A stretch of DNA of 64,000 bases, taken from NCBI RefSeq assembly GCF_014207445.1, contig NZ_JACHEM010000017.1, positions 1 to 64,000 of the forward strand, read 5' to 3'. The notes beneath the pieces are model-generated. The model ran no database searches and was not told the origin of the DNA. It worked only from the letters and a program-made list of their open reading frames with translations. Below are positions 6,557 through 57,915 of this stretch, in pieces (the stretch's first letter is position 1; every line of letters begins with the position of its first letter). The stretch is from Streptomyces candidus (GTDB taxonomy: Bacteria > Actinomycetota > Actinomycetes > Streptomycetales > Streptomycetaceae). A program made the translations under genes and the position numbers.

Positions 6557-6574
6557 CTTGGTGCCGGTCTCGTC
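6341..6574 (-). repeat. Rhs core direct repeat, orphan copy
   Basis: This 234-bp segment is nearly identical to 7130-7363 in the full-length Rhs gene (same orientation, offset 789 bp). Identity is highest toward 6574 and drops toward the tip junction. It is the homology through which tips could be exchanged. Confidence 0.9.
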
Positions 6575-6599
6575 CGCGAGGCGAGGGCGGAACCGAGTA

Positions 6600-40633: not shown

Positions 40634-40888
40634 ATGGAACGCAGCCACCAGCTCGACACCGCGACGACCGCTACCGGCATCACCCGGCTGCCGACGTCGC
40701 TGTGCACCCACAACCCGCCGTGCCCCTCCGCAGAGAGCCCGGACCGCGAGGCCGCGCACGTCGTGGCCGCGTACCCGGAGCAAGGCTGGAGCCTGCTGTG
40801 CAACGCCGTCCTGATCTTCGAGGACACCGGCGAGCTGCTCCCCAACGGCCAGATCATCGCCCCGCACCGGCCCCTCGCTGCGGTCTGA
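40634..40888 (+). CDS. DUF5999 family protein
   Basis: 84 residues from ATG with AGGAGAG. The conserved core LCTHNPPCPSAESPDREAA, then VVAAYPEQGWSLLCNAVLIF and DTGELLPNGQIIAPHRPL, identifies the common Streptomyces DUF5999 family. Function unknown; three Cys may bind metal. Its stop codon lies inside the first copy of the repeated structured element. Confidence 0.85.
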   Translation: MERSHQLDTATTATGITRLPTSLCTHNPPCPSAESPDREAAHVVAAYPEQGWSLLCNAVLIFEDTGELLPNGQIIAPHRPLAAV

Positions 40889-40967
40889 CGGCTGCCTGAT
40901 CCGCCCGCACCGCCCGCCAACTCCCTGGCGGTCGGGTCGGGCGGTGACGGGGAGCCGGACAGCCCGG
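40884..40967 (+). ncRNA. Repeated structured element, copy 1
   Basis: Conserved blocks TCTGACGGCTGCCTGATC and TGACGGGGAGCCGG flank a hairpin. Inner stem CCGCCCG (40901-40907) pairs with CGGGCGG (40938-40944). Outer stem GGCTG (40890-40894) pairs with CAGCC (40960-40964). The inner loop is longer than in copies 2 and 3. It precedes the 125-residue gene by 42 bp. See copies at 52359 and 54017. Confidence 0.65.
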
Positions 40968-41009
40968 ACCGCCAACCCCACGCCGGCGCACGCGATACGA
41001 GGAGAGCCC

Positions 41010-41387
41010 GTGCCACAGCAGCCACAGACGCAGGCCGTCCAGCCGCAGATCCGCTACATCAAGGGCGACATCGTCCTGTTCCGCAACGTCGAACGGTTCT
41101 GGCTCGGCAAACCGGACCACACCTCCGTGGGCCGGGTGGAACGTTCCTGGCAGCACGTCGACACCAGGAAGGTCCTCTACGACCTGACCGAGCTGGGAAG
41201 CCTCAGCTACCGCGCCGGGGTCGACCCCAACTACATGCGGCCGCTCCCGGCGGCCGACGCGATGCGTGACATCGACACCGCGCCGCTGAACGAGACGGAC
41301 ATCGGCGCGATGACCCCGGCCGCCGTTGCCTGGCTGCGTCATCACCTCGCGCGCGGCAATAGCACGTTGCCCGCCCCGCACGCCTGA
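41010..41387 (+). CDS. Hypothetical protein
   Basis: 125 residues from GTG with GAGGAG. Beta-rich N-terminal half (IRYIKGDIVLFRNVERFWL, VGRVERSWQHVDTRKVLYDL) and a helical end (MTPAAVAWLRHHLARG). No membrane segment. It follows copy 1 of the structured element. Family not recognised. Confidence 0.7.
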   Translation: MPQQPQTQAVQPQIRYIKGDIVLFRNVERFWLGKPDHTSVGRVERSWQHVDTRKVLYDLTELGSLSYRAGVDPNYMRPLPAADAMRDIDTAPLNETDIGAMTPAAVAWLRHHLARGNSTLPAPHA

Positions 41388-41442
41388 CCGATCCACCCAC
41401 CGCCGCCCCCGCCGGGCGGCACCCGACCCGGAAGGAGGCGGC

Positions 41443-43650
41443 GTGGCCGCCACACGAACCCGCAAGAGGCCCACCGCCCGAAAGAAGCCGACGGCATCCC
41501 GTCCGTCCGCGGCTCCGCAGCCCACCGCCTCCCCCTCCATCGACGCCTCCCCGGCCGTGACGACGGAGACGGAGGCGGAGGTCGTCGACCTCGAGGCGAT
41601 GGCCCGCGTCGCGGACGCCCGGGACCGGGCCGCCGACGTCATCGACACCGCGCGCGAGCAGGCCGCCGCCCTTCAGGCGGAAGCCGAGAGTGTGGCCGCG
41701 CGCACCGTCGCCGACACGCACGAGCAGGTCACCGTGCTGATGTCCGAGGCGCAGACCCACGCCGAGGGCATCACCGCCTACGCCGACCAGGAGGCCGTCG
41801 CCCAGCGCGAGGCCGCCAAGAGTGCCCTGGAGGCGGCGCGCGGCGAGGCCGACCAGCTCCTGGCGCAGGCCCGCGAGCGCGCCAACACCCTGGTGTCGGA
41901 GGCCCGCGCGCAGGTCACCGACCTCACCGAGCTGGCCGCCACCGACCGCGCGGCCACGGCCACGGCCGTTGCCGAGCTGCGCCGCATGGCGGAGGCCGAT
42001 CTCGCTGAGATCAGTGCCTTGGTCGACCAGCGCCGCACCGACGCGGGCCAGATCCTGGCCCGCGCCCAGGAGCAGGCCGACGAACTGGTCGCCGCGGCAC
42101 AGCGGGAGGTCGACCAGGCCCGTGAGCGGTTCGCCCAGCTCGCGGCGACGGCGGCCGAACAGTACGACGGCCGCCGCGCGGAGGCGGAGGCGCTGTACGC
42201 GGACGCGGTCAAGGCCGCTGACGACCGGCGCCGCAAAGCCGACCTGGCCGTCGCCGCCGCGCACCGTGAGGCGGAGACCGCTCGCGCCGACCTGCGGGAG
42301 GAACTGCGCCAGCTCGGTGAGGAGTTCGACCGCGAGGCGGCATCCAAGCGGGCCATCCTCGACAAGGAACTCGCCGGCCTCAAGGCGGCATGCGACAAGC
42401 AGCGCGAGCGGCTGCGGGAGGAAGCCAAGACCGTCGCGGTGCAGCTGCGGGAGACAGCTCAGAAGGAAGCGAGCCGCATCACCACCGAGGCGGAGCGCAA
42501 GGCGAAGGCCGTCACCGAGCGGGCCAAGGCCGATGAGGCCCGTGCCCGCCGGCTGCTCGATGAGGCCCGCGAGGCGAAGAAGTCGGCCTCCCGCTGGAAC
42601 GGCTGGCAGCAGAACATCAGCCGCAAGGCGTGGAAGGCCGCCCCGTGGATCGCGCTCGCCGCCGGCGTCGGGCTCGCCGCCTCCGGCGAGTACGAACTGG
42701 CCCGCATGGTCGGCATCAACCAGTACGTCGCCCCGCTGCTGCCGGTCAGCATCGACGTCTACTGCGTCACCGCGTTCCGCGCCAAGAAGGACATCCCCTA
42801 CGCGCTGCTGCTGATGGCGTCGGCGAACGTCACCTACCACGTGGCGGAGCAGGCCCACCTCGTGAAGGACGGCCAGTCGGCACCGTGGCAGCTGACCACG
42901 TTCGTCGTGCTGATCTTCGTGGCCGTCATCTGGCGCGTCCACACCCTCATGCACGACGACAGTACGGACGGCCACGGCGCGGATGCTGCGGTCGGCCGTA
43001 CAGGTACGGACGAAGGAAACGGAATGCCCGCCCGTACAGGTACGCACCGGCGTACCGACGGAACGGACACCGGATCGTCCACCCGTACAGAAGGCGCGAG
43101 CCACGACCTGTACGCCGGGCACAACCCGGTTCGGCCGGACGGCACGGGCTCTGAATGGGACGGTACGGGCCCTGTACGCCCCGCCTCGCACCCGCCGCAC
43201 GACGGCGGGGCCGAAGCAGCGGTGACCAGGGCGTACAGCGACCGTACAGGCGGCGTACACACCACCCCCGAAGGAGCGGCGCGTACAGGTACGGCGACTG
43301 CGGGGCGTACCGGTACGGCCAGTGCGGCCGTCCAGGGACGCCCCGGCGCCATCAGCGTCCGTACACAGCCCGGCGGCGAGAGCGTTCCGGGAGCCCGTAC
43401 AGGTACGGACGCCGCGTCCTCGCCCGCAACCGGAATGGGCAGTACGGCGGGTTCGGAGCGTCCCGGTACGCCTGTACGCACGGATGAGGAACTCCTGCCG
43501 CTCGTACAGAACCTCCCCCGTACTGAGGACGGGTTCGTGACGCTCTACCAGGTCCGCAACCAGCTCTCCGTCAACAACAACCGCGCGGTACGCCTGCTCT
43601 CCAAGGCCGGCCTGCTGCGCCCCGAGGACGCGGACAAGCACCTGGCGTGA
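41443..43650 (+). CDS. Coiled-coil membrane protein with repeat-rich tail (DUF2637-like membrane part)
   Basis: 735 residues from GTG with AGGAGG. A Pro/Ala N-terminus is followed by a long Ala/Glu/Arg coiled coil (about 45-385). About four membrane helices at 400-490 resemble DUF2637 (WIALAAGVGLAASGEYELA, PLLPVSIDVYCVTAF, IPYALLLMASANVTYH). A low-complexity tail of Arg-Thr-Gly-Thr repeats (about 515-680) ends in a small HTH-like domain (TLYQVRNQLSVNNNRAVRLL). It could scaffold the transfer apparatus at the membrane and touch DNA with its end; that is inference. Confidence 0.8.
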   Translation: MAATRTRKRPTARKKPTASRPSAAPQPTASPSIDASPAVTTETEAEVVDLEAMARVADARDRAADVIDTAREQAAALQAEAESVAARTVADTHEQVTVLMSEAQTHAEGITAYADQEAVAQREAAKSALEAARGEADQLLAQARERANTLVSEARAQVTDLTELAATDRAATATAVAELRRMAEADLAEISALVDQRRTDAGQILARAQEQADELVAAAQREVDQARERFAQLAATAAEQYDGRRAEAEALYADAVKAADDRRRKADLAVAAAHREAETARADLREELRQLGEEFDREAASKRAILDKELAGLKAACDKQRERLREEAKTVAVQLRETAQKEASRITTEAERKAKAVTERAKADEARARRLLDEAREAKKSASRWNGWQQNISRKAWKAAPWIALAAGVGLAASGEYELARMVGINQYVAPLLPVSIDVYCVTAFRAKKDIPYALLLMASANVTYHVAEQAHLVKDGQSAPWQLTTFVVLIFVAVIWRVHTLMHDDSTDGHGADAAVGRTGTDEGNGMPARTGTHRRTDGTDTGSSTRTEGASHDLYAGHNPVRPDGTGSEWDGTGPVRPASHPPHDGGAEAAVTRAYSDRTGGVHTTPEGAARTGTATAGRTGTASAAVQGRPGAISVRTQPGGESVPGARTGTDAASSPATGMGSTAGSERPGTPVRTDEELLPLVQNLPRTEDGFVTLYQVRNQLSVNNNRAVRLLSKAGLLRPEDADKHLA
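42996..43408 (+). repeat. GTACAGGTAC-type repeats inside the coiled-coil gene
   Basis: CCGTACAGGTACGG, a perfect palindrome around AG, occurs at 42996-43009 and 43395-43408; near copies lie at 43032-43045, 43281-43294 and 43304-43317, with single GTAC halves between. They encode the Arg-Thr-Gly-Thr repeats. Repeats may be selected at protein level or serve as DNA-binding sites. Confidence 0.6.
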
Positions 43651-43672
43651 TCCACGTCCGGCACACACCAGT

Positions 43673-43705
43673 GAGGGCCAGCCCGAAGGAAGCGGGCTGG
43701 CCCTC
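43673..43705. terminator. 13-bp perfect hairpin
   Basis: Arms 43673-43685 and 43693-43705, 22 bp after the coiled-coil gene stop. Confidence 0.7.
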
Positions 43706-43772
43706 GCTGCGACTGCCGGAAGCAGTCCACAGCCCCCCGAGTACAGCAGATCCGACCCCCACGGAGGACCCC

Positions 43773-44261
43773 GTGAGCACCGAAAACAACTTCTTCGACG
43801 ACCCGAACGCGGCGCTGCGCGAGATCGCGCAGAACCCCGCCGCCTACGCGCACTACCTTGCGGACTTCCACCGGGTCGTGCTGGACATGCAGACCAAGCT
43901 GGAGATCCTCCAGCGTGAGGCCCGCGTGCACTGTCGCGGAATGCACGTCGAGGGCGACAAGTGGGGCCAGGCCTACCTGCGCTCGTTCCCGGTGGAAAAG
44001 TCCCTGAACGATGTTCTGAAGAACCTCAAGAGCGTCACTTCGGGACTGGAAAAGAGCGCTCATAAGCGCCACGCCCACGACGAAAAAGTGAAGGAGGTTA
44101 AGAAAAACCGAAAGGAAAAGGCGCAGCTCAAGGCGTTTAAGAACAACCCGACGCTCCAGGCCGCCCCGGAAAACCCGGGTCGGCAGGGTGCGCAGAGCCC
44201 GAATCCGGGCTATGGTGGTCCCACGTCGATTTACAACCTGGACCGCAGGGAGTCGGCGTGA
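43773..44261 (+). CDS. Helical hypothetical protein
   Basis: 162 residues from GTG with GGAGG. Helical throughout (LADFHRVVLDMQTKLEILQR), with a very basic stretch at about 105-130 (DEKVKEVKKNRKEKAQLKAF) that could bind nucleic acid. GC content falls around 44040-44160 compared with neighbours, hinting at separate origin. Stop overlaps the next start (GTGA). Confidence 0.7.
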   Translation: MSTENNFFDDPNAALREIAQNPAAYAHYLADFHRVVLDMQTKLEILQREARVHCRGMHVEGDKWGQAYLRSFPVEKSLNDVLKNLKSVTSGLEKSAHKRHAHDEKVKEVKKNRKEKAQLKAFKNNPTLQAAPENPGRQGAQSPNPGYGGPTSIYNLDRRESA

Positions 44262-44494
44262 GTGCAGGTCGCCCGCTCACGAAAGCAGAGCGGAAGGATT
44301 TCAACCGTGCGGAACACGAGCGCAAAATCAAACAGGATTTGATTGCGCAGCACGGCAAAGACCTCGGCACCTTCTACGCCTGGCTCCGGATTGTGAACAT
44401 CCGAGGCACCCAGGCATATCGCAGCGGGAACACGGAGTTCATCCGTGAGGCCGCGCTCGCCCTGCACAACGTCTACAGCCGCCACGTCGGCTAG
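44258..44494 (+). CDS. Small basic hypothetical protein
   Basis: 78 residues from a GTG overlapping the previous stop. Charged N-terminus (KAERKDFNRAEHERKIKQDL) and helical rest (FYAWLRIVNIRGTQAYRS). Co-translated with the 162-residue gene and sharing its lower GC. Function unknown. Confidence 0.65.
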   Translation: MSAGRPLTKAERKDFNRAEHERKIKQDLIAQHGKDLGTFYAWLRIVNIRGTQAYRSGNTEFIREAALALHNVYSRHVG

Positions 44495-44510
44495 CTTCCC
44501 GCGCCCCGCA

Positions 44511-44547
44511 CGAAGGGCCGCTCCCGATCCCCGGGAGCGGCCCTTCG
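44511..44547. terminator. 16-bp perfect hairpin
   Basis: Arms 44511-44526 and 44532-44547, 16 bp after the 78-residue gene. A GCGTGCCGCGCGTG-type low-complexity stretch follows before the next gene. Confidence 0.75.
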
Positions 44548-44646
44548 GCGGTCCCAACGCGTGCCGCGCGTGTCGCGTGCCGCGCGTGGCGTGCGCGCGT
44601 GTACGCGAGGCCAAGGCCGACTGTCAAGCCCAGGAGGAGGGGTCGC

Positions 44647-46896
44647 GTGTCCGACGACACCGACAGCAATGTCATCAACCTCCCCACTCGGGGCAGTGAT
44701 TCCGGCGCAATGCCGGATGCCCCCGATGGCGGGGATCTCTTTTATTCCGAACCGTCCGGCGGCAGTGCGGACGACGCTGCTCCCCCGGGCTCCCCGGAAG
44801 GGTCGACCAGGGAAATTCCTGCCATTCGCGGCCCTATTTCCCCGGAAGTGGCATTGCGGGAAACGGGAATGCCCGACGCCCCGGATTCCGAGGATGAGGA
44901 ATACGAGGAAGGCGAATACGAGCAGCCTCGTTCTCTTGCTGATCGCCTCGGTGACTGGCTGGAGCTTCGTTTGGAAGTGGCGCGGGACCGGCACGCCGGT
45001 GAAGCGCCGTTCCGGGAGGCGGAAATAGCGCGCAAGGCTGCGCTTGTGAAAGCCCGCACCGCTCAGGAAACCGCGCTGATGGAGCAGAACGCGCAGTTCC
45101 ACGCTGCGCAGATGAAAGCGAAGTCCGACAAGGCGGCGGCGCGCGGCAAGGCCGACGCGGCGCGGTCCTCCGGCTCCGGCATGGGCGCCGACAAGGGCGG
45201 CCGCTCGAAGGGCGGCGGCGGGGGCAACTCCGGCGGCTCCGGCCGCGGCGGGGGCCGGGGGTCGGGAACGAACGGGTCCGGCGGCTCCGGTCGCGGTTCC
45301 GGGGGCGGCAACTCCCCCAAGGGCGTCGGGAAGGGCTCTGATCGCTCCGCTGGCGGCGGTAAGGGCACCTCGAAGGGCAATGAGTCGTCCGGTGGCCCGA
45401 AAGGCCGTCAGAACGGCTCTGGAGGCTCCGGGTCGGGCAAGTCCGGATCGGGCAAGGGCAGTTCGGGTGGCTCCGGCGGCAAGAACGGCTCGGGCAGTTC
45501 CGGGACCGGCAAGGGCGGTTCGAAGGGCGACGGCGGCAGGTCGAAGGACTCGCCGGCCGCCAGCCCCAGGACTGAGCGGGCCCGCGGCCGCCAGGAGCGT
45601 GCCGCCGCCCGCCAGGCGGCACGCCAGCAGCGGCGCGGCGCGAGCCAGGCCGCCAACCTCGCCGACCGGAGCAAGGACCGCGACCAGGACCGCGCCGCCG
45701 TCCAGGCGGCGCGCGAGGAACGCCGCAAGCTGAAAGCCGAGCGGAAGGCAGCGGCACGGACGAAGCGGGAGGCGGCCAAGGCCGCCGACGACCGCACCAC
45801 CCTGGGAGCGGCCGTCGGGCAGGAGGCGCAACGCCGCTGGGACAAGCGCCGCCCGGCGGACAAGGACAAGGCCGCGAAGGACGGCAAGGCCAAGGACGAC
45901 GCTGGTGACGCCAAGGACACCACCGGCGACAAGGACTCCGAGGCCACGACCAAGAAGATGACCAAGGACGACCCCGAGGAGCCCTCAGACGGCACGAAGG
46001 ACGACTCCGCGACCAAGAAGCCGGACGACGGCAAAAAGGGCGGCGAGAAGCCGTCTGGCGCCTCCGCAGACACCGACGCGAAGGACGGCACGGGGACGGG
46101 CACTGACCCCAAGGCCGACGACGTCAAGGACCCGCCGGACACCGGTGACAGCGACGACAAACGCTCCTTCAAGGAGAAGGTCAAGGATTTCTTTACGAAG
46201 GCCGGCGAGGACAACACCCCGCCCGAGCCGCAGGAGTCCTCGAGGCTTCGGCCCGAGGACTTGGGCGACGTCACGGTGGAGCGCCCCGGCGGCCCGACCC
46301 GGACCCCGCAGCCCGAACCGGCTGAGGACGACATCGAGGACGCGGACGTCGTCGACGACCCGTCCGACCCCTTCGGGGCGCACGTCAGCAGCCCGGCGAG
46401 CCTCCCGCGCGCGCCGGAGCCGCACACCCAGCGTCCCGGCACCAGCCGACCCACTGCACAGGAGGACCCCGTGGCATCGGAGGTCAACAGGCCCTCGGGC
46501 CAGGCCCGGATGGCAGCCAAGCACCGCACCGACATCACCTTCGGCGAGTACCTGACGGAGATCGTGAACATCGCGATCGCCGCAGCCCTCGACAAGGACC
46601 GCGCCCAGGACCTGGCCGACGCGCTCGGCAAGGTCGCCGACGCCCTGCGCGACATGGCCACCGACCTGGGTGCCGATCACAACATCGCCACCGCGGTCGT
46701 CAACCAGATCACCGACCTGGCCGACGCCGCGGACCGCATGAAGCAGGTGGCCGAACGGTGCGCCACCCAGTGCGACATCGCCTCGGAGGCCGCCCGGATC
46801 GCCGCCATGGCGGTCGGCCGCGTCTACGGCCAGGACATGAAGGCCATGGACGACGCCGGCCTGGCCACCGCGTCCTCCGCCGCCCACCACGACTAG
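44647..46896 (+). CDS. Large low-complexity protein with helical C-terminal domain
   Basis: 749 residues from GTG with AGGAGGAGGG. After an acidic start and a coiled-coil-like segment (about 95-180), a Gly/Ser/Lys-rich tract runs from about 180 to 320, then Lys/Asp-rich disordered sequence to about 600. The C-terminal 130 residues are ordered and helical (DITFGEYLTEIVNIAIAAAL, VADALRDMATDLGADHNIAT, QCDIASEAARIAAMAVGRVY). No enzyme motif. It lies two genes upstream of the DNA translocase and could be a structural transfer protein. Confidence 0.75.
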   Translation: MSDDTDSNVINLPTRGSDSGAMPDAPDGGDLFYSEPSGGSADDAAPPGSPEGSTREIPAIRGPISPEVALRETGMPDAPDSEDEEYEEGEYEQPRSLADRLGDWLELRLEVARDRHAGEAPFREAEIARKAALVKARTAQETALMEQNAQFHAAQMKAKSDKAAARGKADAARSSGSGMGADKGGRSKGGGGGNSGGSGRGGGRGSGTNGSGGSGRGSGGGNSPKGVGKGSDRSAGGGKGTSKGNESSGGPKGRQNGSGGSGSGKSGSGKGSSGGSGGKNGSGSSGTGKGGSKGDGGRSKDSPAASPRTERARGRQERAAARQAARQQRRGASQAANLADRSKDRDQDRAAVQAAREERRKLKAERKAAARTKREAAKAADDRTTLGAAVGQEAQRRWDKRRPADKDKAAKDGKAKDDAGDAKDTTGDKDSEATTKKMTKDDPEEPSDGTKDDSATKKPDDGKKGGEKPSGASADTDAKDGTGTGTDPKADDVKDPPDTGDSDDKRSFKEKVKDFFTKAGEDNTPPEPQESSRLRPEDLGDVTVERPGGPTRTPQPEPAEDDIEDADVVDDPSDPFGAHVSSPASLPRAPEPHTQRPGTSRPTAQEDPVASEVNRPSGQARMAAKHRTDITFGEYLTEIVNIAIAAALDKDRAQDLADALGKVADALRDMATDLGADHNIATAVVNQITDLADAADRMKQVAERCATQCDIASEAARIAAMAVGRVYGQDMKAMDDAGLATASSAAHHD

Positions 46897-46913
46897 AAGG
46901 AAGGGGTCCGCTG

Positions 46914-47330
46914 ATGAGCGACCTCGCACCCACCACCGGCGGCGGTGCCGCCGCCCGGACGGACGGCGACAACCGCTACAAGGCCGTCCAGCAGAAACTC
47001 AAGGCGCTCGGCCGCGCCATGGACCTGGCCACCAACGAACTCCAGACTCTGCAGCGCGACATGGAGACCAACGCCCGGCGCTCCGAGGGCCTGGCCGTCG
47101 ACATCGCCAACGCCGAACTCGACCGCACGCACATCGAGATGACCAACCAGGTGTCCGTCGCCCTGGGCGGCGCCGCCATCGAGGTGAAGAAGCTCCACGA
47201 GACGGCCCAGGAAGTCTCCGGCCAAGCCCACGACACACGGCGCACCCACGCGCGGCTGTACGAGGGCCTGGACGACATCCGCTCCAGCCGCAAGGAGCGC
47301 ACCCCCAAGCCGGGCTTCTTCGTCCGCTGA
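46914..47330 (+). CDS. Coiled-coil hypothetical protein
   Basis: 138 residues from ATG with AAGGAAGG. Long helix (VQQKLKALGRAMDLATNELQ, IEVKKLHETAQEVSGQAHDT) and a basic end (RSSRKERTPKPGFFVR). It starts 17 bp after the large low-complexity gene, so they are probably co-expressed partners through coiled coils. Function unknown. Confidence 0.7.
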   Translation: MSDLAPTTGGGAAARTDGDNRYKAVQQKLKALGRAMDLATNELQTLQRDMETNARRSEGLAVDIANAELDRTHIEMTNQVSVALGGAAIEVKKLHETAQEVSGQAHDTRRTHARLYEGLDDIRSSRKERTPKPGFFVR

Positions 47331-47347
47331 ACCAGCCCTCTCCCCCT

Positions 47348-47386
47348 GATGGGCGGCCCCTTCCACGACGGAAGGGACCGCCCATC
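47348..47386. terminator. 17-bp hairpin, one mismatch
   Basis: Arms 47348-47364 and 47370-47386, between the coiled-coil gene and the translocase gene. Confidence 0.65.
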
Positions 47387-47410
47387 GCCACACCACGAAG
47401 GAGAAAACCG

Positions 47411-49531
47411 GTGTCCGTGCCGCGCAGCGTCGCCCTGGAGCGCACCTTCTACACCCTGAGTGCCCCGGTCCTCGCCGCGGCCCCGAACCTGTTCGCCGAC
47501 AGCCCCGTCAACACGGTCGTGCAACTGGCCGGTGCGGCCGGTGTAAGCGGCTGGGTCCTGGCCGCCAAGAGCAACGAGCCCGGTGCGGGACGCAAGATCC
47601 TGCGCTGGTCGCCGCTCGTGACCGCCGCCGCGATAGACCTCGCCGCCGGCTACACGGTCGGCTGGGGCCCGTGGTGCCTGGACGGCCTTCTCGCCGCGAG
47701 CTGGGCGGCCGCCGGCCTGTTCGTGATGCCCTTCTCCCGGCACGCCCGCCGCCGTCACCGCCCCGCGCTCGCCACCCCGGCCCCCGCGCCGCAGCTGCAG
47801 GAAGCCCCCAAGCCGTCCCTCGCGCAGCCGGACGACGGCGCCGACAACTTCACCCGCCAGGTCCGCTGGCTGTGGGAGGAGCGCGGCTTGCCCGGCCGCA
47901 CCATCGTGGTGATGGCCACCCCGCACGCGGGCATGCCCAACGACCTGTCGCTGCTGCTGCGCGCCTCCGAGGCCGGACGGCCGATCTCCAGCCTCACCGA
48001 GGAGGCCGTCGCCGCCGCGTTCGGTGTCGACATCACCGACGTACGGATCGAGGACGTGCCCCGGCAGTACGGGCGTGAAGGAGGACCGGGCTGGAAGGAA
48101 GTCCACGTCACCCCCGATCTGAACGAGCGCCGCCGCAAGGCGCCCACCACCCACGAGTGGTGGGCCGACCGGATCGGCGGTGACCGTGGGCCGGTGCCCG
48201 GCTCGCAGTTCATCAAGAAGATCCGCGACCACGACCGCAAGGTCACCCACTACATCGCCCAGGTCCCCGACGAACTGGGCGAGCCGCGCGTCAACCAGGA
48301 CAACCTGGCCGCCGCGCTGAAGACCAAATACGACGACGGCCGGCTGTTCGTCACGGTCGACGGCAACCAGGTCCTGGTCTCCCTGTGGGACTCCAGCCCG
48401 CTCGCGCAGATCTTCCCCGCCACACGTGAGCTGCTGACCCCGGACAAGGACGGCCGGTGGGTGACCGGTTATCTCGGCAACGGGCAGCCCGCCCGCAACA
48501 GGGTCTACACCGACCGGGGCGCGGCCCACGGCTTGTTCGTCGCCCCGTCCGGCGGCGGCAAGACCCAGCTGATGGGCCTGCACGTCGCCGCCGACGCCCT
48601 GTTCGGCGCCGTGGTGTGGCTGGCCGCGGAAGCCCCGGACGAGAAGGCCGCCAAGCTGGGCGAATACACCGACCGCTACGGCGTCGGCGCGCTCTACATG
48701 ATCCGGCTCCTGCGCACCCTGGACGCCCTGATGGAAATCCGCGGCGAGATGGTCTGGGAAGACGGCCGGGTCTACGACTGGGACCCCAAACTGGCGGGCT
48801 GCCCCTACCGGATGCTGTCCGCCTACCTCGATGAGTTCCTCTCCGCCGCCCGCCACGGCGACTACGGCGCGGACATCATGGACCTCGCCGAAAAGGTGTC
48901 GGTCAAGGGCCGCAAGTACGGCATCGGCCTCAAGGTCGCCGGCCAGTCCATCTATGTGCAGGACGGGTTCACGCAGCTTTTGTGCGAGAACCTGCGCGAG
49001 AACTGCATCCCGGTCATCTTGAAGGTCGCACCGAAGAAGATCGCCGACATGTTCAAGGCCCTCGGCATCTCCTCCGACAACACCCCCGATGCGCTCCCCC
49101 GCTCTTTCTCCCCTGCCGAGGCGGGCCGCATCGAGCGGGTGATGCGCGGCGAGCCCGAGCCGCCCACCGACTCCAACACCGGCGGCGCCGGGTGGATCGT
49201 CGAAGCCAAGCACCCCGAGGTCCTGCGCACCCTGTTCATGGACTTCAAGACCGGCCTCGACGCCTACTTCCCCGACATGGTCGCCTCCCTCACCGACTAC
49301 GAGATCCGCGAACTTGAGGCGCGGGATCTGTGGTTCGACTGGACCGAGCCGCCTCGGCCCGGGGAATTCGGCCCCGAACCCGACGACGAGGACGACGACT
49401 GGGACGGGGAGGACAAGCCGAAGAAGGGCGGCGGCAAGCCCCGCCGCCCAGGGAAGTCCCCCGCACGCCGCGACGCGGTCACCTCGCCCCTCCAAGCACT
49501 GGAAGCCATCAAGAACCTCTCCGGCGTCTGA
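47411..49531 (+). CDS. FtsK/TraB-type DNA translocase for conjugation
   Basis: 706 residues from GTG. An N-terminal membrane part (about residues 35-115) is followed by an ATPase domain with Walker A FVAPSGGGKTQL (about 379-390) and Walker B MLSAYLDEFLSAAR (about 472). The C-terminus is acidic then basic (DDEDDDWDGED, KPKKGGGKPRRPGK). Streptomyces transfer double-stranded DNA with a single FtsK-like protein, TraB; this is the only such ATPase in the window and the likely transfer motor. It differs from short TraB proteins in having about 150 residues (VRWLWEERGLPGRTIVVMAT onward) between the membrane part and the ATPase. Confidence 0.88.
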   Translation: MSVPRSVALERTFYTLSAPVLAAAPNLFADSPVNTVVQLAGAAGVSGWVLAAKSNEPGAGRKILRWSPLVTAAAIDLAAGYTVGWGPWCLDGLLAASWAAAGLFVMPFSRHARRRHRPALATPAPAPQLQEAPKPSLAQPDDGADNFTRQVRWLWEERGLPGRTIVVMATPHAGMPNDLSLLLRASEAGRPISSLTEEAVAAAFGVDITDVRIEDVPRQYGREGGPGWKEVHVTPDLNERRRKAPTTHEWWADRIGGDRGPVPGSQFIKKIRDHDRKVTHYIAQVPDELGEPRVNQDNLAAALKTKYDDGRLFVTVDGNQVLVSLWDSSPLAQIFPATRELLTPDKDGRWVTGYLGNGQPARNRVYTDRGAAHGLFVAPSGGGKTQLMGLHVAADALFGAVVWLAAEAPDEKAAKLGEYTDRYGVGALYMIRLLRTLDALMEIRGEMVWEDGRVYDWDPKLAGCPYRMLSAYLDEFLSAARHGDYGADIMDLAEKVSVKGRKYGIGLKVAGQSIYVQDGFTQLLCENLRENCIPVILKVAPKKIADMFKALGISSDNTPDALPRSFSPAEAGRIERVMRGEPEPPTDSNTGGAGWIVEAKHPEVLRTLFMDFKTGLDAYFPDMVASLTDYEIRELEARDLWFDWTEPPRPGEFGPEPDDEDDDWDGEDKPKKGGGKPRRPGKSPARRDAVTSPLQALEAIKNLSGV

Positions 49532-49549
49532 CCTCACCCCGCACACCCC

Positions 49550-49582
49550 GCAGGGCCCGGCCGTATTCCGGCCGGGCCCTGC
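49550..49582. terminator. 14-bp perfect hairpin
   Basis: Arms 49550-49563 and 49569-49582, 18 bp after the translocase stop. Confidence 0.75.
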
Positions 49583-49607
49583 CCACACCTGGAAGGACAC
49601 ACCACTC

Positions 49608-49796
49608 GTGGCCGTATCGATCTCCGTCGTCGTCCTGCTCGCCATCGTCGTCTTCGTCCTCATCCGGGGCGGAACCGTACGCCTCCTGCCCGCCCTGGCC
49701 TGCGCCGCCTTCGGCTTCCTCCTCGCCTCCTCCGGTGCCGGGCCCTACATCACCGGCGCGATCAGCGGCATCACCGGCTGGATCTCCAGCATCTGA
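49608..49796 (+). CDS. Small membrane protein
   Basis: 62 residues from GTG with GGAAGG. Two hydrophobic helices (VAVSISVVVLLAIVVFVLI and LLPALACAAFGFLLASSG) and an amphipathic end GAISGITGWISSI. Follows the translocase gene. Small membrane proteins at this place in Streptomyces transfer regions are often spread (Spd-like) proteins; similarity is only in size and topology. Confidence 0.7.
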   Translation: MAVSISVVVLLAIVVFVLIRGGTVRLLPALACAAFGFLLASSGAGPYITGAISGITGWISSI

Positions 49797-49863
49797 CCCT
49801 GCCCGGCCGGCGGCGTCGACGGCCGCCGCCCCCTGCACCTCCGACGCCTTCCGAGGAGCCCCG

Positions 49864-50394
49864 ATGCCCCACCTCATCCACGCCCCGCCACTGCCGGCCC
49901 GCACGAGCGCGCCGCCCGCCGAACTGTCGCTGGAGGCCCGCATGGCCGCCACGGACGCGGCGATGACCGTCCGGCTGGAGGAGGCCGCCGTCGCCTACGA
50001 GGTCAACACCGCGCACATCGACACCGTGCCGGTCGACCTGGGCGACGTCGTCACCCTCCCGCTCACCCCGACCCTCCAGCCCCCCACCCCGTACGCGACA
50101 CCGGTGGCGGCGCTCCTGCAGCGCGCGCACCACCGGCTGCTCACCGACGGCTGGTGCACCGGCGCCTTGGTCGACGCGGAAGGCGCCCGCTGCCTGTACG
50201 GCGCGATCCACCACGAAGCCCGCGGCGACCAGAGCCTCGCCTCACGCGGCCTGGAGGTCCTGATGGACGCGATCCGCCGCGAGTTCAGCGACGTCGACTC
50301 TGTGCCGTCCTTCAACGACGCCTTCGCCAGCGGCCGCATCCCGCTGCGGATGCTCGACAAGGCCGCCGGCCTCGCCGACGCCCGCCTCCTCTGA
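49864..50394 (+). CDS. DUF6197-like protein
   Basis: 176 residues from ATG. The C-terminal half carries the pattern I associate with DUF6197: LLTDGWCTGALVDAEGARC, YGAIHHEARG, and FSDVDSVPSFNDAFASG. The first 80 residues are Pro/Ala-rich. Soluble, function unknown. Common in Streptomyces mobile elements. Confidence 0.75.
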   Translation: MPHLIHAPPLPARTSAPPAELSLEARMAATDAAMTVRLEEAAVAYEVNTAHIDTVPVDLGDVVTLPLTPTLQPPTPYATPVAALLQRAHHRLLTDGWCTGALVDAEGARCLYGAIHHEARGDQSLASRGLEVLMDAIRREFSDVDSVPSFNDAFASGRIPLRMLDKAAGLADARLL

Positions 50395-50569
50395 ACCTCC
50401 CCGGACCACCTGCCTCGTACCCGAACCCGTCGTGGTCGGGTGCGGGCCAGGCCGTCCGGCCTCCTTTACGCCGTAAAGACGCGCCTGGCGTGCGAACCAT
50501 CGCGCCGCCCCCGGAACACCTCCCCACCACCGGCCACCACGCCCACCCGACCAAGGGAGCACCTTCGCC

Positions 50570-51376
50570 ATGCAGTCCGACGACAAGCCCGTCAACGGCC
50601 AGCCCACCCCGAGCTTCCTCGACCTGCTCAACCAGAGGCCCCCGACGAAGAACACCGACCTGAGCAAGGACACCGACACCACGCGCCTCGCCCAGTTGCG
50701 GGCCGGCTGGAACGCCTCCTGGGAACAGGGCGGCTTCCTGCACGGGCGGTGGGAGGAACTACGCCTGGCCCCGAAAGCCGGGATGCACGGCATGGCCCGC
50801 TGGATCAAGGCACTCCTGATGCTGGCCGGGGTGTGCGCGCTCTTGATCCTGCTCGACACCGCGGGCGACATCTTCGGCGCTGCCCTGAGCCGCCTGGCCG
50901 ACTCGGTCCCCGCCACCCGGGCCGGAACCAGCGCCGTGGGCGAGCTGTGGGGCGTGGTCGACACCCCGATCCGCTCGTACATCGACCAGCACAGCATGGG
51001 TCTCAGCGTCAGCGGATCCGCCGTCTACACCGCCTGGCAGCTCGTGGGTTGGTTCGGCCTGATCGGCGGGTTCCTCGGCAGCACCGGCGCCCGCATCACC
51101 TGGACCTGCTGGGGCGCGGGCAGCGTTCTCGCCGTGTGGTCCGCGGCCCCGGCCGACGGACGCACCGTCGCCACCTCGATCGCCGTCCTCGCCTGGACCC
51201 TCGCCTCCACCCTCGCCCTGCGTGGCTGGAGCCTGCGCCCGATCGTCAACAACTACCTCCCGCCCCACCCGGCGTTCCAGCCCCAGATCGAGATCCGGCC
51301 CGAGATCCACCTCCCCGCCCCGGCCCCCGCGCCCGATGGCGACACCCCCGACAACGTCCACCAGCTCCAGCGCTGA
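50570..51376 (+). CDS. Membrane protein, paralogue of the protein at 52710
   Basis: 268 residues from ATG with AAGGGAG. About four helices lie in residues 78-225 (WIKALLMLAGVCALLILLD, TAWQLVGWFGLIGGFLGST, TSIAVLAWTLASTLALRGW). The part from VSGSAVYTAWQLVGW to LRGWSLRP aligns with residues 105-190 of the 52710 protein. The C-terminus is Pro-rich. Probably part of the cell-envelope transfer or spread machinery. Confidence 0.75.
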   Translation: MQSDDKPVNGQPTPSFLDLLNQRPPTKNTDLSKDTDTTRLAQLRAGWNASWEQGGFLHGRWEELRLAPKAGMHGMARWIKALLMLAGVCALLILLDTAGDIFGAALSRLADSVPATRAGTSAVGELWGVVDTPIRSYIDQHSMGLSVSGSAVYTAWQLVGWFGLIGGFLGSTGARITWTCWGAGSVLAVWSAAPADGRTVATSIAVLAWTLASTLALRGWSLRPIVNNYLPPHPAFQPQIEIRPEIHLPAPAPAPDGDTPDNVHQLQR

Positions 51377-51510
51377 CCCGGTCGCTCCGCCTGGCCCTCG
51401 CCCCTCCCCGCAGCCGCGGGGCGGGGCGAGGGCCGGACAGGCCGCCCGGCCTCAGCAACTTTCCCGCTCCCGCAGCACCCCTGCGGACGACCCCAAGGAG
51501 AGAGATCGTC

Positions 51511-51720
51511 TTGGCGAAAGCGCCCCGCGTCATAGGTGTCCTCGCAGAGCCCGCCCCGCCCACTTGGTGGCGCGCCCACCGGCACCAGGTCTTCCTGGTT
51601 CTCGGGCTGATCGGCGGCTTCTACCTCTGCTCACACACCAGCGACGCCGCGCCCCCTGCCGACCCGCCCCGGCCCGCACACACCGAACGACCTCACAGCA
51701 CCGCCACCGCACAGCGCTGA
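51511..51720 (+). CDS. Small single-helix protein, paralogue of the one at 52477
   Basis: 69 residues from TTG behind AAGGAG. The shared core is VIGVLAEPAPPTWWRAHRHQ followed by a helix (VFLVLGLIGGFYLC) and a Pro/Thr/His tail. The core is almost identical to that of the 52477 protein, so this is a duplicated gene. Confidence 0.7.
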   Translation: MAKAPRVIGVLAEPAPPTWWRAHRHQVFLVLGLIGGFYLCSHTSDAAPPADPPRPAHTERPHSTATAQR

Positions 51721-51917
51721 ACATCACCTCGTGCGCCCGCCACCCCGCACCGGGGCGGCGGGCGCACCGCTCTTCCCCGCTCATTCGCCGACCGCCTGGA
51801 GGACTTCACCGTGCTGACACCCCGGCCCCGCCGCAGGATCGGACGCCCGCGCCCCACCATCCCCGGCCCCCGCTACCCCGCGCCCCAGCGCCGACTTCCC
51901 GGTACCTGGAGCAGGTG

Positions 51918-52349
51918 ATGGCCGACCAGGACCAGGACCTGGTCGACGTCGATCCGAACGACCCCGGCGACGGCTCTCTACCGGTCTTCCGGTGGAGGCA
52001 GGCCGGGCGCGAGAACCTCGCGACACGCCGCCAGCTCCGGGAGATGGGACTGCGCCCCGGCGCCCAGGAGCCCGTCGCGCGGATCGAGTGCCGTGGTGGC
52101 AAGCGCTTCGCGTGGCTGTACCGGATCGATCTGGCGAAGCCGAAGTTCGCGATGACGCTCGCGAAGGAGGCCGCGCTCGACAAGGCGATGGCTGCCCGTC
52201 AGACGTGTCCCGGCCCCTGTGGCCGGCGCTATTTCCACTGCCTTCCTCTGCGCTCCCTCGGGTCGTGCCTGGAGTGCGCCGAGGGTATCCCGGCCGCGCC
52301 CGACACCTATATGCACCACGGCGGCGCCCAACTGGCCGCTGCCGCCTGA
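51918..52349 (+). CDS. RRQRL-motif zinc-binding protein
   Basis: 143 residues from ATG with GGAG. The motif region ATRRQLREMGLRPGAQEPVA and a Cys cluster (TCPGPCGRRYFHC, GSCLECAEG) match the actinobacterial RRQRL-motif family, here with RRQL. The segment WLYRIDLAKPK is also typical. Common in Streptomyces transfer regions; molecular role unknown. Followed directly by copy 2 of the structured element. Confidence 0.8.
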   Translation: MADQDQDLVDVDPNDPGDGSLPVFRWRQAGRENLATRRQLREMGLRPGAQEPVARIECRGGKRFAWLYRIDLAKPKFAMTLAKEAALDKAMAARQTCPGPCGRRYFHCLPLRSLGSCLECAEGIPAAPDTYMHHGGAQLAAAA

Positions 52350-52358
52350 CCGTTCACC

Positions 52359-52429
52359 CCTGACGGCTGCCTGATCCACCCGTACCGCACGCTGCGGGCC
52401 GGGTGGTGACGGGGAGCCGGGCAGCCCGG
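52359..52429 (+). ncRNA. Repeated structured element, copy 2
   Basis: Conserved blocks as in copy 1. Inner stem CCACCCG (52376-52382) pairs with CGGGTGG (52400-52406): the third pair is A-U where copy 1 has G-C, a compensatory change. Outer stem extends to 7 bp, GGCTGCC (52365-52371) with GGCAGCC (52420-52426). Lies 9 bp after the zinc-protein stop and 47 bp before the next start. Confidence 0.65.
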
Positions 52430-52476
52430 CCCCGCGCACATGACCTGTCCCCTGTGCCCTGGGAGCCCACCTCTTG

Positions 52477-52713
52477 ATGGCGAAGAAGCCGCCGCCCGCC
52501 GTGATCGGCGTCCTGACCGAGCCCGCCCCGCCCACCTGGTGGAGAGCCCACCGCCACCAGGTCCTGCTGATCGTCGGGATCTTCCTCGGCTGGCAGCTAT
52601 GCGGAGCAAGCAGCGGAGCCGCCGATCACGACCAGTACGGCCCCGCCCGCCCCGCCCACAGCGCCACCCCGTCCGCGACGCCGTCGACCACCTCGAAGGA
52701 GAACCACCGGTGA
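52477..52713 (+). CDS. Small single-helix protein, paralogue of the one at 51511
   Basis: 78 residues from ATG 52477 (a TTG one codon earlier is possible). Core VIGVLTEPAPPTWWRAHRHQ, then helix VLLIVGIFLGWQLC and a Ser/Thr/Pro tail. Its stop overlaps the GTG of the following membrane gene. Confidence 0.7.
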   Translation: MAKKPPPAVIGVLTEPAPPTWWRAHRHQVLLIVGIFLGWQLCGASSGAADHDQYGPARPAHSATPSATPSTTSKENHR

Positions 52714-53309
52714 GTGAGCCCGACAAGCCCCGCGAGCCCGAACCCGCCGTTCCGCCGCTGGACACCATCGACGACAGCCAGCGCGTCCCGCCGCCCCGGC
52801 GGCCTGCCCCGCCCCGGCCCCAGCCGATCAACGCCGCCGCCGACATCCCGCCCGGCGCCATCGCCGCCTTCGGCGTCGTCGGCCTGGTCGCCCTGGTCCT
52901 CGTCCTCAAGTGGGGCATCCCCAAGGGCATCGACTGGTACCACCACCAGGACTGGGCGTGGTTCACACAGTGGACCGCCACCGTCGCCGACCCCGTCCAC
53001 GCCTACCTGAGCGCGCACACGGTCGGCCTGCCGCTCACGGCCACCAGCGCTTTCGTCATCTGGCAGGGCGTCGGCATCGCCTCCCTGGCCCTGTCCTGGT
53101 TCACCGGCGCCGTCGGCGCCCGGCTGACCTGGACCGCGCACGGGGCCTCCTCAGTGTTCATGGTCTGGGACGCCTCCCCCGCCGCCGGCCGCCCCGTCGC
53201 CGCCGCACTCGCGGTCCTGGCCTGGACGATCGGCAGCCTCTTCGCCCTGCGCGGCCTGTCCCTGCGCCCCCGCATCAACATCCACAACCACAACCACCCG
53301 GCCCGCTGA
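52710..53309 (+). CDS. Membrane protein, paralogue of the protein at 50570
   Basis: 199 residues from GTG with AAGGAG, overlapping the previous stop. Pro-rich N-terminus, then helices (IAAFGVVGLVALVLVLKWG, TSAFVIWQGVGIASLALSWF, AALAVLAWTIGSLFALRGL) ending LRPRINIHNHNH. Similar in order of segments to the 50570 protein, which suggests duplication of a two-gene unit (small helix protein plus this one). Confidence 0.75.
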   Translation: MSEPDKPREPEPAVPPLDTIDDSQRVPPPRRPAPPRPQPINAAADIPPGAIAAFGVVGLVALVLVLKWGIPKGIDWYHHQDWAWFTQWTATVADPVHAYLSAHTVGLPLTATSAFVIWQGVGIASLALSWFTGAVGARLTWTAHGASSVFMVWDASPAAGRPVAAALAVLAWTIGSLFALRGLSLRPRINIHNHNHPAR

Positions 53310-53321
53310 GAGGACGTCGAC

Positions 53322-54011
53322 ATGTTCCGGATCATCAGCACGGCCCGGCTCAACGAGCTGGACAACCTCGCCTCCGCGTTCCCCATGGTCCGGAGCAAAA
53401 GCGACCGCCTGGAGAAGGACCTGGAGACGGAGCAGCGCCTCACCAAGGAGCTCACCGCGAAAGCCGAACAGGCCACTGCCCGCTTCCGCCAGGAGCTCAC
53501 CGACCTCGTTCAGCAGGCCGACGCCCGCGTCGCCGAAGCCAGGGCCTCGGTACAGCGAGCCCAGCACCAGGCCAACGCCCTGATCGACGGGGCCACGAAG
53601 CGGGCCAACGACATCGAGCGCCGGGCCGATCAGAAGGTCCGGGAGCTGAACGCACAGATCGAACAGCTCAAGGCCAAGCTGCCCCACCCGACGCCCATCC
53701 CGGAAGGGGTCGTCGCCCGGTACCAGAACCTGGTCGGCGCCCTCATCGACCTGACCCTGTTCACCATCGAGGACACCAACGCGGAGCCCGGCTACGGCTA
53801 CTCCGCCAAGCGCGTCGACCTGAAGCTGGTCAGCCTCTGCGCCGGTTGCGGCTACCGGCAGGAGGAGACCCGCAAGGAGGTCTACGACACCGCCGAGACC
53901 CGCACCAACTTCCTGGAGAACACCTACGAGGGCGAGAAGCTCAAGCGCTGGGCGCAGGAGCACGCAGAGACGTGCCGGGCCGTCGCCCTCCCCCTCCAGC
54001 GCGCCGCCTGA
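53322..54011 (+). CDS. Coiled-coil protein with a C-terminal Cys motif
   Basis: 229 residues from ATG. Long coiled coil over residues 25-125 (DRLEKDLETEQRLTKELTAK, AEARASVQRAQHQANALIDG), then a globular part with LVSLCAGCGYRQEETRK and a later HAETC that could bind zinc. It lies 12 bp after the membrane gene and is followed by copy 3 of the structured element. Function unknown. Confidence 0.75.
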   Translation: MFRIISTARLNELDNLASAFPMVRSKSDRLEKDLETEQRLTKELTAKAEQATARFRQELTDLVQQADARVAEARASVQRAQHQANALIDGATKRANDIERRADQKVRELNAQIEQLKAKLPHPTPIPEGVVARYQNLVGALIDLTLFTIEDTNAEPGYGYSAKRVDLKLVSLCAGCGYRQEETRKEVYDTAETRTNFLENTYEGEKLKRWAQEHAETCRAVALPLQRAA

Positions 54012-54016
54012 CCTGG

Positions 54017-54087
54017 TCTGACGGTTGCCTGATCCACCCGCCCCGCACGCTGTGGACCGGGTGGTGACGGGGAGCCGGACAGCCCGG
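54017..54087 (+). ncRNA. Repeated structured element, copy 3
   Basis: Conserved blocks as in copies 1 and 2. Inner stem CCACCCG (54034-54040) with CGGGTGG (54058-54064). The outer stem is GGTTG with CAGCC, keeping pairing through a G-U wobble. Begins 5 bp after the coiled-coil gene stop and ends 17 bp before the PycTM-like start. Confidence 0.65.
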
Positions 54088-54104
54088 CCCGGATGGGAGT
54101 CGAC

Positions 54105-54572
54105 GTGACCACCGCCCCCCTCACCCTCACCGGCGACCGGAATCTGGACGCCGCCTGCACCACCGTCACCGGCGAGATCGCCCGGACCGACAACAAGGCC
54201 AGCCTGCTGCTCGCCTTCGACGGCGCAGTCCTCGCGGGCCTGGCCAGCGTCGCCGACAAGGACCTGCCCGTGTTCACGAAGGTCGTCGGCAGCCTGGCCG
54301 TCCTCACCCTCGCCACCGCGGCGGTCCTGCTCCTCCTGGTCGTCCGGCCGAACCTGGGCGGCGGCCGTATCGTCCGCGAGGGCCTGCCGTGCTGGGCACG
54401 CCTCGAGGAGAACGAACTCCAGGAGGCGATGGGCCAGGACACGCGCCTCGCCCGCGTGAAGTCTCTGTCGCTCCTCGCGGTCCGCAAGTTCCGGCGCCTG
54501 GCCCTCGCGGTCGACGTCATCCTCGCCGCGCTTGCCCTGCTGACCGTCGCCGCGATCGGAGTGCTGGTGTGA
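54105..54572 (+). CDS. PycTM-like membrane protein (Pycsar-effector family, DUF5706-like)
   Basis: 155 residues from GTG 54105 (GGGAG upstream); ATG 54093 is possible. Layout fits the PycTM family: EIARTDNKASLLLAFDGAVL opening the first helix, a second helix ending LLLVVRPNLGGG, a soluble segment, and a last helix after KFRRLALAVDV. Pycsar effectors respond to cyclic pyrimidine nucleotides and disrupt the membrane in phage defence. No pyrimidine cyclase is in the window; many Streptomyces mobile elements carry PycTM-like proteins whose ligand is not known. A GGDEF gene lies 3.7 kb downstream. Confidence 0.72.
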   Translation: MTTAPLTLTGDRNLDAACTTVTGEIARTDNKASLLLAFDGAVLAGLASVADKDLPVFTKVVGSLAVLTLATAAVLLLLVVRPNLGGGRIVREGLPCWARLEENELQEAMGQDTRLARVKSLSLLAVRKFRRLALAVDVILAALALLTVAAIGVLV

Positions 54573-56475: not shown

Positions 56476-57165
56476 ATGACCGCAACCCTGCGCCAGACGG
56501 CCAACACCGTCGCCAACTCGATGATCGAAGGCGCCAGCATGGCGTCCGCGCTGATCGGCGGCGCGGCCGGTGCCTACCTCGGCTACCAGCTCGCCCCCGC
56601 CGCATGGTCGGACGGAGCCCGCATCCTGTTCGCCGGGGCGGTCGCCGTCGTCGGGGCCGTCGCCATCGACGGGCTTGCCGAACTCGTCCTCGCCCCGATG
56701 CGCCGACTGATGCGGCGCACTCCGTTCCATGTCACCCGCGCATCGGCCCCGGCCCCGGCCGACAACCTGGACGACGCCCTCGCCCAGGTCGCCACCGCCA
56801 CCGAGGCCGACGCCGCGTACCGCGCTGCCGGTGCCGCCTTCTCCATTGACCAGGGCGACAACTTCCTGCGGGACGAGGACCGGTGGCGCGGCTACGAGGA
56901 CGGCGAGGCGTCCTTCTACCTCGCTCCCGGCGTCTGGCTCCACCACCGCAGCGAGCTGGGCACGTACGGGCGAGAGCACCACTTCACGCTGCTGACCGGC
57001 GACGGCGAGCAGCCGGTGACCATCACCGGCATGGAGCAGATCCGCCACCACCTCGCCGCCCGCGCCGCCGGCCTTCCCGCCGCCCCGGTGACCGCCGACC
57101 GGGACATCGACGGTGACAAGGACGACGTCCTGGACGACGACCTCACCGGCATCCACGCGGTCTGA
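56476..57165 (+). CDS. Membrane-associated hypothetical protein
   Basis: 229 residues from ATG with AGAAGGAG. Two hydrophobic helices near the N-terminus (SALIGGAAGAYLGYQLAPA, ILFAGAVAVVGAVAIDGLA), then a soluble beta-rich domain (SFYLAPGVWLHHRSELGTYG, HHFTLLTGDGEQPVTITG) and an acidic end. Family not recognised. Confidence 0.68.
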   Translation: MTATLRQTANTVANSMIEGASMASALIGGAAGAYLGYQLAPAAWSDGARILFAGAVAVVGAVAIDGLAELVLAPMRRLMRRTPFHVTRASAPAPADNLDDALAQVATATEADAAYRAAGAAFSIDQGDNFLRDEDRWRGYEDGEASFYLAPGVWLHHRSELGTYGREHHFTLLTGDGEQPVTITGMEQIRHHLAARAAGLPAAPVTADRDIDGDKDDVLDDDLTGIHAV

Positions 57166-57178
57166 CGGACTGCCCGTT

Positions 57179-57205
57179 CCGCCCCGGCCCACGCGGCCGG
57201 GGCGG
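57179..57205. terminator. 11-bp perfect hairpin
   Basis: Arms CCGCCCCGGCC at 57179-57189 and complement at 57195-57205, 13 bp after the previous stop. Confidence 0.65.
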
Positions 57206-57256
57206 TGCGGTGGCCAATCAGCCCACCCCGTGATCCGCGAGAGGACCGCATCGACC

Positions 57257-57826: not shown

Positions 57827-57843
57827 CCTGACGCGCCGCCGTG

Positions 57844-57871
57844 CCGCCCCGGCCTCACCCGGCCGGGGCGG
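57844..57871. terminator. 11-bp perfect hairpin with the same arms as 57179-57205
   Basis: CCGCCCCGGCC at 57844-57854 and complement at 57861-57871, 17 bp after the stop at 57826. Confidence 0.65.
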
Positions 57872-57915
57872 TCGCGGTGTTCCGCCCCGACCAGCAACAG
57901 AAAGGAGTGGGCGTC

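Follow-up and report, generated by a model that had tools for sequence, protein, structure and literature searches.

A covarying intercistronic RNA hairpin family on plasmids and integrative elements of Streptomycetaceae, with a possible role in translation

What is the hairpin-forming element that occurs three times between genes in a 64,000-nt stretch of Streptomyces candidus DNA (positions 1 to 64,000 of contig NZ_JACHEM010000017.1, hereafter the window), and does it act in DNA or in mRNA? A first-pass annotation had placed the copies at 40884-40967, 52359-52429 and 54017-54087, and all three were found at those places, on the plus strand, with scores of 87.2, 86.0 and 90.3 bits under the family model R1 described below. 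Copy 1 lies between a DUF5999-like gene, whose UGA stop (40886-40888) falls inside the element, and a gene for 125 aa with a GTG at 41010, 42 nt away; the DUF5999 label comes from the annotation at the corresponding place in relatives and from a Pfam match of the homologue in L004. Copy 2 follows an RRQRL-type zinc-binding protein gene (51918-52349, plus strand) and is separated by 47 nt from the ATG (52477) of a 78-aa gene. Copy 3 follows a 229-aa gene (end 54011) and precedes a gene with a PycTM domain, standing 5 nt from an ATG at 54093 or 17 nt from a GTG at 54105. Each copy is thus located directly ahead of a start, as had been proposed, and the three downstream genes differ. The gene after copy 3 (54093-54572) carries the PycTM domain PF18967 of Pycsar effectors, and PycTM-annotated genes are found downstream of an element copy on several plasmids.

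The copies share a string at either end, as the annotation had reported, although the letters it gave for these strings had to be corrected, to CTGACGGYTGCCTGATC and TGACGGGGAGCCGGRCAGCCCGG. Similarly, copy 2 had been located properly but begins with CCTGACGG rather than TCTGACGG. The 5′ string has three exact matches in the window, and allowing up to 3 mismatches returned only the same three; in shuffled sequence the mean at this tolerance was 0.59, and three matches were reached in 1 of 100 shuffles. Chance origin of the shared 5′ string is therefore excluded. Across the 7.4 Mb genome the 3′ string occurs, with up to 3 mismatches, at the three window sites only, and the reversed control pattern gave one match. 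The short tail pattern says little by itself (15 matches with up to 3 mismatches, compared with 6.8 in shuffles).

The window resembles a Streptomyces plasmid. A megablast search with the 34-58 kb segment matched 221 plasmid records, 212 of them from Streptomyces, and the best matches included a linear plasmid of S. subrutilus and SAP1 of S. avermitilis. Elsewhere in the window, positions 6324-6577 and 7113-7366 form a direct repeat of 254 nt with 91% identity. A divergent fourth copy that the annotation had not listed was found on the plus strand at 57161-57228 (26.2 bits with R1, 24.5 with the later model R2); it overlaps the stop (57163-57165) of a 229-aa gene, an open reading frame begins downstream at ATG 57257, and counterparts in a similar gene order are present in three other plasmids (L009, L010 and L011). 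Two further weak copies are located on contig C24 of the same genome, at 8354-8425 and 11993-12063 (30.6 and 43.7 bits with R2; minus strand of locus L105, 4355-4426 and 7994-8064), the second of them 36 nt ahead of a 57-aa open reading frame.

Other hairpins in gaps of the same operon have ends related to those of the element. One, at 51390-51449 on the plus strand (CCUGGCC, stem, GGCCGGACAGGCCGCCCGG; ends CCUGG and GGACAGGCCGCCCGG), has GGACAG and CCCGG in common with the element and lacks YUGCC and GGGGAG, which makes it a candidate relative; counterparts were found in L004, L005, L006 and L021. A second is located at 50409-50459 (CCUGCC and GGCCAGGCCGUCCGG), and the two possibly represent a third form of the family. 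The blocks 50570-51720 and 52477-53309 contain similar genes in tandem (73% identity over 130 nt), one gap holding a variant hairpin and the corresponding gap the canonical copy 2. By eye, further GC hairpins are seen in same-operon gaps at about 51740 and 57828; the latter (57828-57872) is 71% like the divergent copy (57162-57206) over 45 nt and falls under the model's threshold for a copy.

The annotation knew of no RNA family with this layout, in agreement with Rfam 15, in which nothing reached the gathering score against the window; with copy 1 as query and E values up to 5 allowed, the sole matches were to six microRNA families and scored far short of the cut-offs of those families. Blastn at E values up to 1, where the weakest matches are due to chance, found copy 1 in 202 plasmid records (194 from Streptomyces) and copy 3 in 165 (157 from Streptomyces). 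An exact-pattern scan of the genome collection yielded 87 stretches, 80 of which were taken as loci. Of these, 75 carry Streptomycetaceae names, if Streptantibioticus and Actinacidiphila are counted within the family, as we presume; one is from an actinobacterium, and four from other phyla (L055, L064, L071 and L074) gave no model match at E 1e-4 and were taken as chance occurrences. Model R1, constructed from 18 sequences, produced 119 matches at E 1e-4 in 89 sources, and these were used to construct model R2. At E 1e-4, R2 detected the element in 103 of 295 Streptomyces genomes and, across Streptomycetaceae, in 76 of the 297 genomes sampled (7 of 17 genera); a class-level sample searched at E 0.001 gave 16 of 394 genomes (1 of 137 genera). 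These prevalences are lower bounds, since stricter filters were applied in the large genome searches and 12 of 20 RRQRL loci from apparently negative genomes do hold copies (see below). Further copies, whose absence the annotation had named as refuting its reading, thus exist.

Plasmids and chromosomal AICE-like elements of Streptomycetaceae are the hosts, and one genome of the genus has a copy at SAP1 coordinates; the SAP1 copy of S. avermitilis occupies 46142-46226 of NC_004719. In viruses, an exact-pattern search of IMG/VR returned no stretches, and distant blastn of phage records gave no convincing copy, the one match to a Burkholderia phage having an E value of 0.2 over 42% of the query. 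None of the titles and abstract openings among the literature matches listed names the motif, and the words plasmid and SAP1 do not occur in the main text of a paper on S. avermitilis transcript boundaries.

Single-sequence minimum-energy folding gave the same type of irregular hairpin for most of the first 20 copies. From the base, its parts are a P1 helix (CUG/CAG), an A/GA loop, a P2 helix (CGGYU/AGCCG), a G·G mismatch, a CC/GG step, a purine loop of the UGAU/UGACG type or a paired equivalent, an apical stem and a CCCGG tail. In copy 1 the 3′ arm and tail (GGGGAGCCGGACAGCCCGG, 40949-40967, plus strand) pair with the 5′-arm segments CUG, CGGYU and CC, leaving the CCCGG unpaired, and the apical hairpin occupies 40901-40944 of the same strand (CCGCCCG...CGGGCGG with an inner extension). 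The structure of this apical hairpin is kept across the family while its sequence varies: both sequence and length are free, with 7-23 pairs in 119 copies. The change from CCGCCCG/CGGGCGG in copy 1 to CCACCCG/CGGGTGG in copies 2 and 3, from which the annotation had suspected a covarying stem, is a true two-sided replacement of G-C by A-U, and across the 119 sequences each of the 7 modelled apical pairs shows such two-sided changes.

Pairing was kept in 97.4% of 2014 cells in the 119 sequences, in alignments fitted to the model, and two-sided changes were found in 61 cells, compared with 7.6 in shuffles. When the structure was slid along the alignment as a control, pairing dropped to 12.6-61.5%. 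After thinning to rows below 80% identity (44 of 119), 715 of 739 cells still paired; a second, overlapping set of rows, in which 9 of 53 are minus-strand matches, was 97.1% paired. Compensatory changes beyond both shuffled and slid controls are what is expected of a covarying structured RNA. Folding energies were also low relative to shuffled sequences (median z -3.5; below -2 in 102 of 119). Taken together, these data leave little room for doubt that the RNA family is real. Roughly one in three of the genomes sampled from the genus carries it, and Rfam has no match for it.

The lower half of the hairpin behaves differently from the apical stem, in that the lower stem, the near-invariant G·G mismatch and the CCCGG tail are conserved in sequence. 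Because 80 of the 89 sources of alignment A3 were fetched by an exact pattern containing TGCC and GGGGAGCCGGACAGCCCGG, conservation of those letters in A3 is partly by construction; the apical stem lies outside the pattern. Among 37 type I rows that R2 rather than the exact pattern had found, each mismatch G was kept in 36 (47 of 52 rows were retained for this tally). The outer stem GGYUG/CAGCC of the annotation is probably not the main fold: of 117 minimum-energy folds, 105 pair the same U with AGCC (as GGYU/AGCC) and 2 pair it with CAGCC, median pair probabilities are 0.98 and 0.0, respectively, and CAG pairs instead with the basal CUG (median probability 0.94). As near-invariant helices can hardly covary, the P1 and P2 pairings rest on folding energy and on a variant form, type II, which keeps CCGGUU/AGCCGG and lacks CAGCC. 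Counts of GU versus AC (61 to 24) gave only a mild preference for the sense strand. Conservation of sequence in the lower half and of shape alone in the upper half suggests a recognition site held together by an arbitrary clamp.

The form in the window is designated type I. Type II (CCGGUUGCCUCC..GAGGGGAGCCGG) was found in chromosomal loci, and both forms are present in L108, L109, L111, L112, L119 and L120. Eight of 12 aligned type II copies stand ahead of DUF6284-like genes (PF19801 was confirmed for the gene in L108), often with a GC hairpin between copy and gene. The chromosomal loci are labelled AICE-like on the strength of nearby GntR and RRQRL genes and of a 718-aa open reading frame in L108 that was taken for a candidate TraB-like protein. 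When five chromosomal loci (L106, L108, L109, L111 and L119) were compared with Rfam, a single match was obtained, a gntR-DTE RNA (RF02989, 104 bits) at L106 1013-1183. It is not the element, which is located in the same locus at 4013-4079, about 2.8 kb away and without overlap.

Where the copies stand relative to genes was determined for 165 elements, obtained from the 171 rows of alignments A3 and A4 by removing L138, L143, one antisense row and repeated windows; genes in unannotated loci were called by codon composition. A start with a Shine-Dalgarno sequence was present within 60 nt downstream of 139 of 164 elements, compared with 12 of 165 on the antisense strand and 273 of 3000 random places. 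The downstream start, found for 158 of 165, lies at a median distance of 23 nt, with 121 at 14-32 nt. An upstream stop was found for 123 of 165 and falls between -30 and +8 of the element in 110 of these; in 47 of the 123 it is the element's own UGA (positions 3-5). In annotated plasmids all 38 matches of at least 50 bits are on the operon strand, and hand counts showed a co-directional gene ending no more than 30 nt upstream for 32 and a co-directional start no more than 60 nt downstream for 30. As exceptions, for 6 of the 38 the 30 nt upstream contain no annotated end of a co-directional gene, the match at L169 7813-7896 is inside an annotated gene, and the match at L173 27790 follows an opposite-strand gene. 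The 158 downstream proteins fall into 57 blastp clusters, the largest with 18 members. From these counts the element is mostly intercistronic and sense, and is tied to no single gene family; it marks gene junctions on plasmids and integrative elements, and by eye its versions are conserved place by place across different plasmids. The spread over 57 clusters also gives no hint of a ligand that a riboswitch would bind.

Strand, position and covariation make action in mRNA the simplest reading. The annotation had proposed that the RNA regulates in cis, that it is processed at the element or that a protein binds there, and these three proposals are supported as a set. Among specific roles we favor, tentatively and at somewhat less than an even chance, a cis-acting element through which a bound factor switches translation of the following gene. 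The lower half and tail would form the recognition site of a putative RNA-binding factor, and the apical stem would merely bring the arms together. Given the size of the ribosome footprint, the 5′ arm would be covered whenever a ribosome terminates at the upstream UGA. Whether the element is occupied would then hinge on translation of the upstream gene; the 3′ arm is just ahead of the Shine-Dalgarno sequence, and an occupied element would gate initiation there. A single factor could in this manner set the translation of several unrelated genes. Against such a switch, no off-state is evident, as the Shine-Dalgarno sequence is unhidden in the predicted fold, and the tight spacing on both sides could reflect mere gene compaction.

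The closest rival is an RNA processing signal, in which the hairpin would be the target of an endonuclease, for example RNase III, and a polycistronic message would be divided at the gap; we consider it unlikely, though a serious contender. Bacterial polycistronic mRNAs are described as processed by RNase III enzymes, and adpA mRNA as cleaved by RNase III of S. coelicolor (PMC2936110). The element is placed as such a site would be, in gaps between co-directional genes whose co-transcription is assumed from gene order, and its helix is long and irregular, the main form having an asymmetric 4/5 internal loop, and its apical sequence is free. RNase III usually requires shape and not a fixed sequence, however, and the some 20 fixed bases of the lower stem and tail go beyond that need; the shortest copies, moreover, have an apical stem of only 7 bp. 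The same fixed bases bear on the improbable alternative that the element is a passive spacer, a role open to any hairpin stable enough to prevent read-through, the loading of Rho or the sliding of ribosomes from one gene to another. Other GC hairpins do occur in gaps of the same operon, although the one at 57828 resembles the divergent copy, but a spacer would not need a conserved lower stem, G·G mismatch and CCCGG tail.

A transcriptional element (an attenuator, pause or antitermination site) is more doubtful still. Repetition along operons would suit it, as would the strong GC hairpin that often follows the chromosomal type II form before a DUF6284-like gene, but the hairpin has no U-tract after it and stands a short distance ahead of starts, mostly behind a co-directional gene and not at the beginning of operons. 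An intrinsic terminator in particular was rejected on reading the sequences, as UGA(C/A)GGGGAGCCGG or a variant of it, with no U run, comes after the apical hairpin. Action at the DNA level, as a REP-like mobile palindrome, a recombination or transfer site, or an operator, is very improbable: the element is an imperfect palindrome with several copies per plasmid, and palindromic enough for weak model matches on the opposite strand, but its orientation is fixed to the genes, its location is bound to stop and start, copies are found at matching places in other plasmids, and its own genome has few copies, three strong and three weak. REP-like repeats of RAYT transposases, by comparison, have many genomic copies in both orientations relative to genes, and with so few copies per genome and 38 of 38 on the operon strand this class was discarded. 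Least credible is a target for a trans-encoded antisense RNA, which would fit the 5′ and 3′ strings common to all copies, except that neither the 3′ string nor its complement occurs elsewhere in the genome with up to 3 mismatches.

If the element is a factor-bound translation switch, the RRQRL protein encoded directly upstream of copy 2 is, by co-location, a candidate for the factor. When open reading frames of the window from 33 kb onward and of three other plasmids were compared with 14 chromosomal loci, the only ones recurring in at least two loci were RRQRL (11 of 14) and GntR regulators (8 or 9 of 14). Among 295 genomes, RRQRL was detected in 186 and the element in 103, with 93 having the two together (odds ratio 9.9). 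In 12 of 20 RRQRL loci sampled from element-negative genomes, copies with an E value of 0.004 or lower are present at a distance of up to about 6 kb, and 13 of 14 matches in those loci are on the RRQRL strand. This co-occurrence is an association rather than proof, as both mark the same mobile elements, and the data do not make RRQRL an obligatory partner, since 10 of 103 element-positive genomes have no RRQRL at E 1e-8 (14 candidates scored per genome). Pfam gave no family for the two RRQRL proteins searched. The AlphaFold model has a mean pLDDT of 69.5 and a pTM of 0.46; its best Foldseek match has an E value of 2.2, and its best VIA match is Rad4, with Z 4.7 and 2.7 A over 55 residues; these structural comparisons were uninformative. 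A profile search of PDB sequences gave a weak match between the zinc-ribbon part and ribosomal L37Ae/eL43 (E 0.0014), which is a lead only.

A broader proposal, to which we assign a low probability, is a regulon private to conjugative elements of Streptomycetaceae, in which one element-encoded RNA-binding protein, perhaps RRQRL, reads an RNA mark at many junctions of plasmids and AICEs. Transfer and spread functions would then be set together, through translation or mRNA cutting. If a single factor does read the element, an RNA-level switch would be common to the conjugation genes of different mobile elements, and a single pull-down bait could suffice to find that factor.

Two candidate structured RNAs, the lactis-plasmid and Bacillus-plasmid motifs, take their names from plasmids. 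They are listed for Lactobacillales and Bacillus (PMC2864571), and the Rfam search of the window matched neither. The gntR-DTE RNA is likewise structured but differs from the element in sequence, size (119 positions) and fold. In phage T7 early mRNA, intercistronic RNase III sites are irregular hairpins with asymmetric internal loops, located in the gaps between genes. The element is alike in being an irregular gap hairpin with an asymmetric loop in a polycistronic message; we claim no shared sequence, and the element has a lower stem whose letters are fixed. Coat-protein operators of RNA phages such as MS2 are protein-bound hairpins near a downstream start that control translation, and the element too places a hairpin near the start of the downstream gene. 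Unlike these operators, it stands ahead of many unrelated genes, in several copies per mobile element, and its binding protein is putative.
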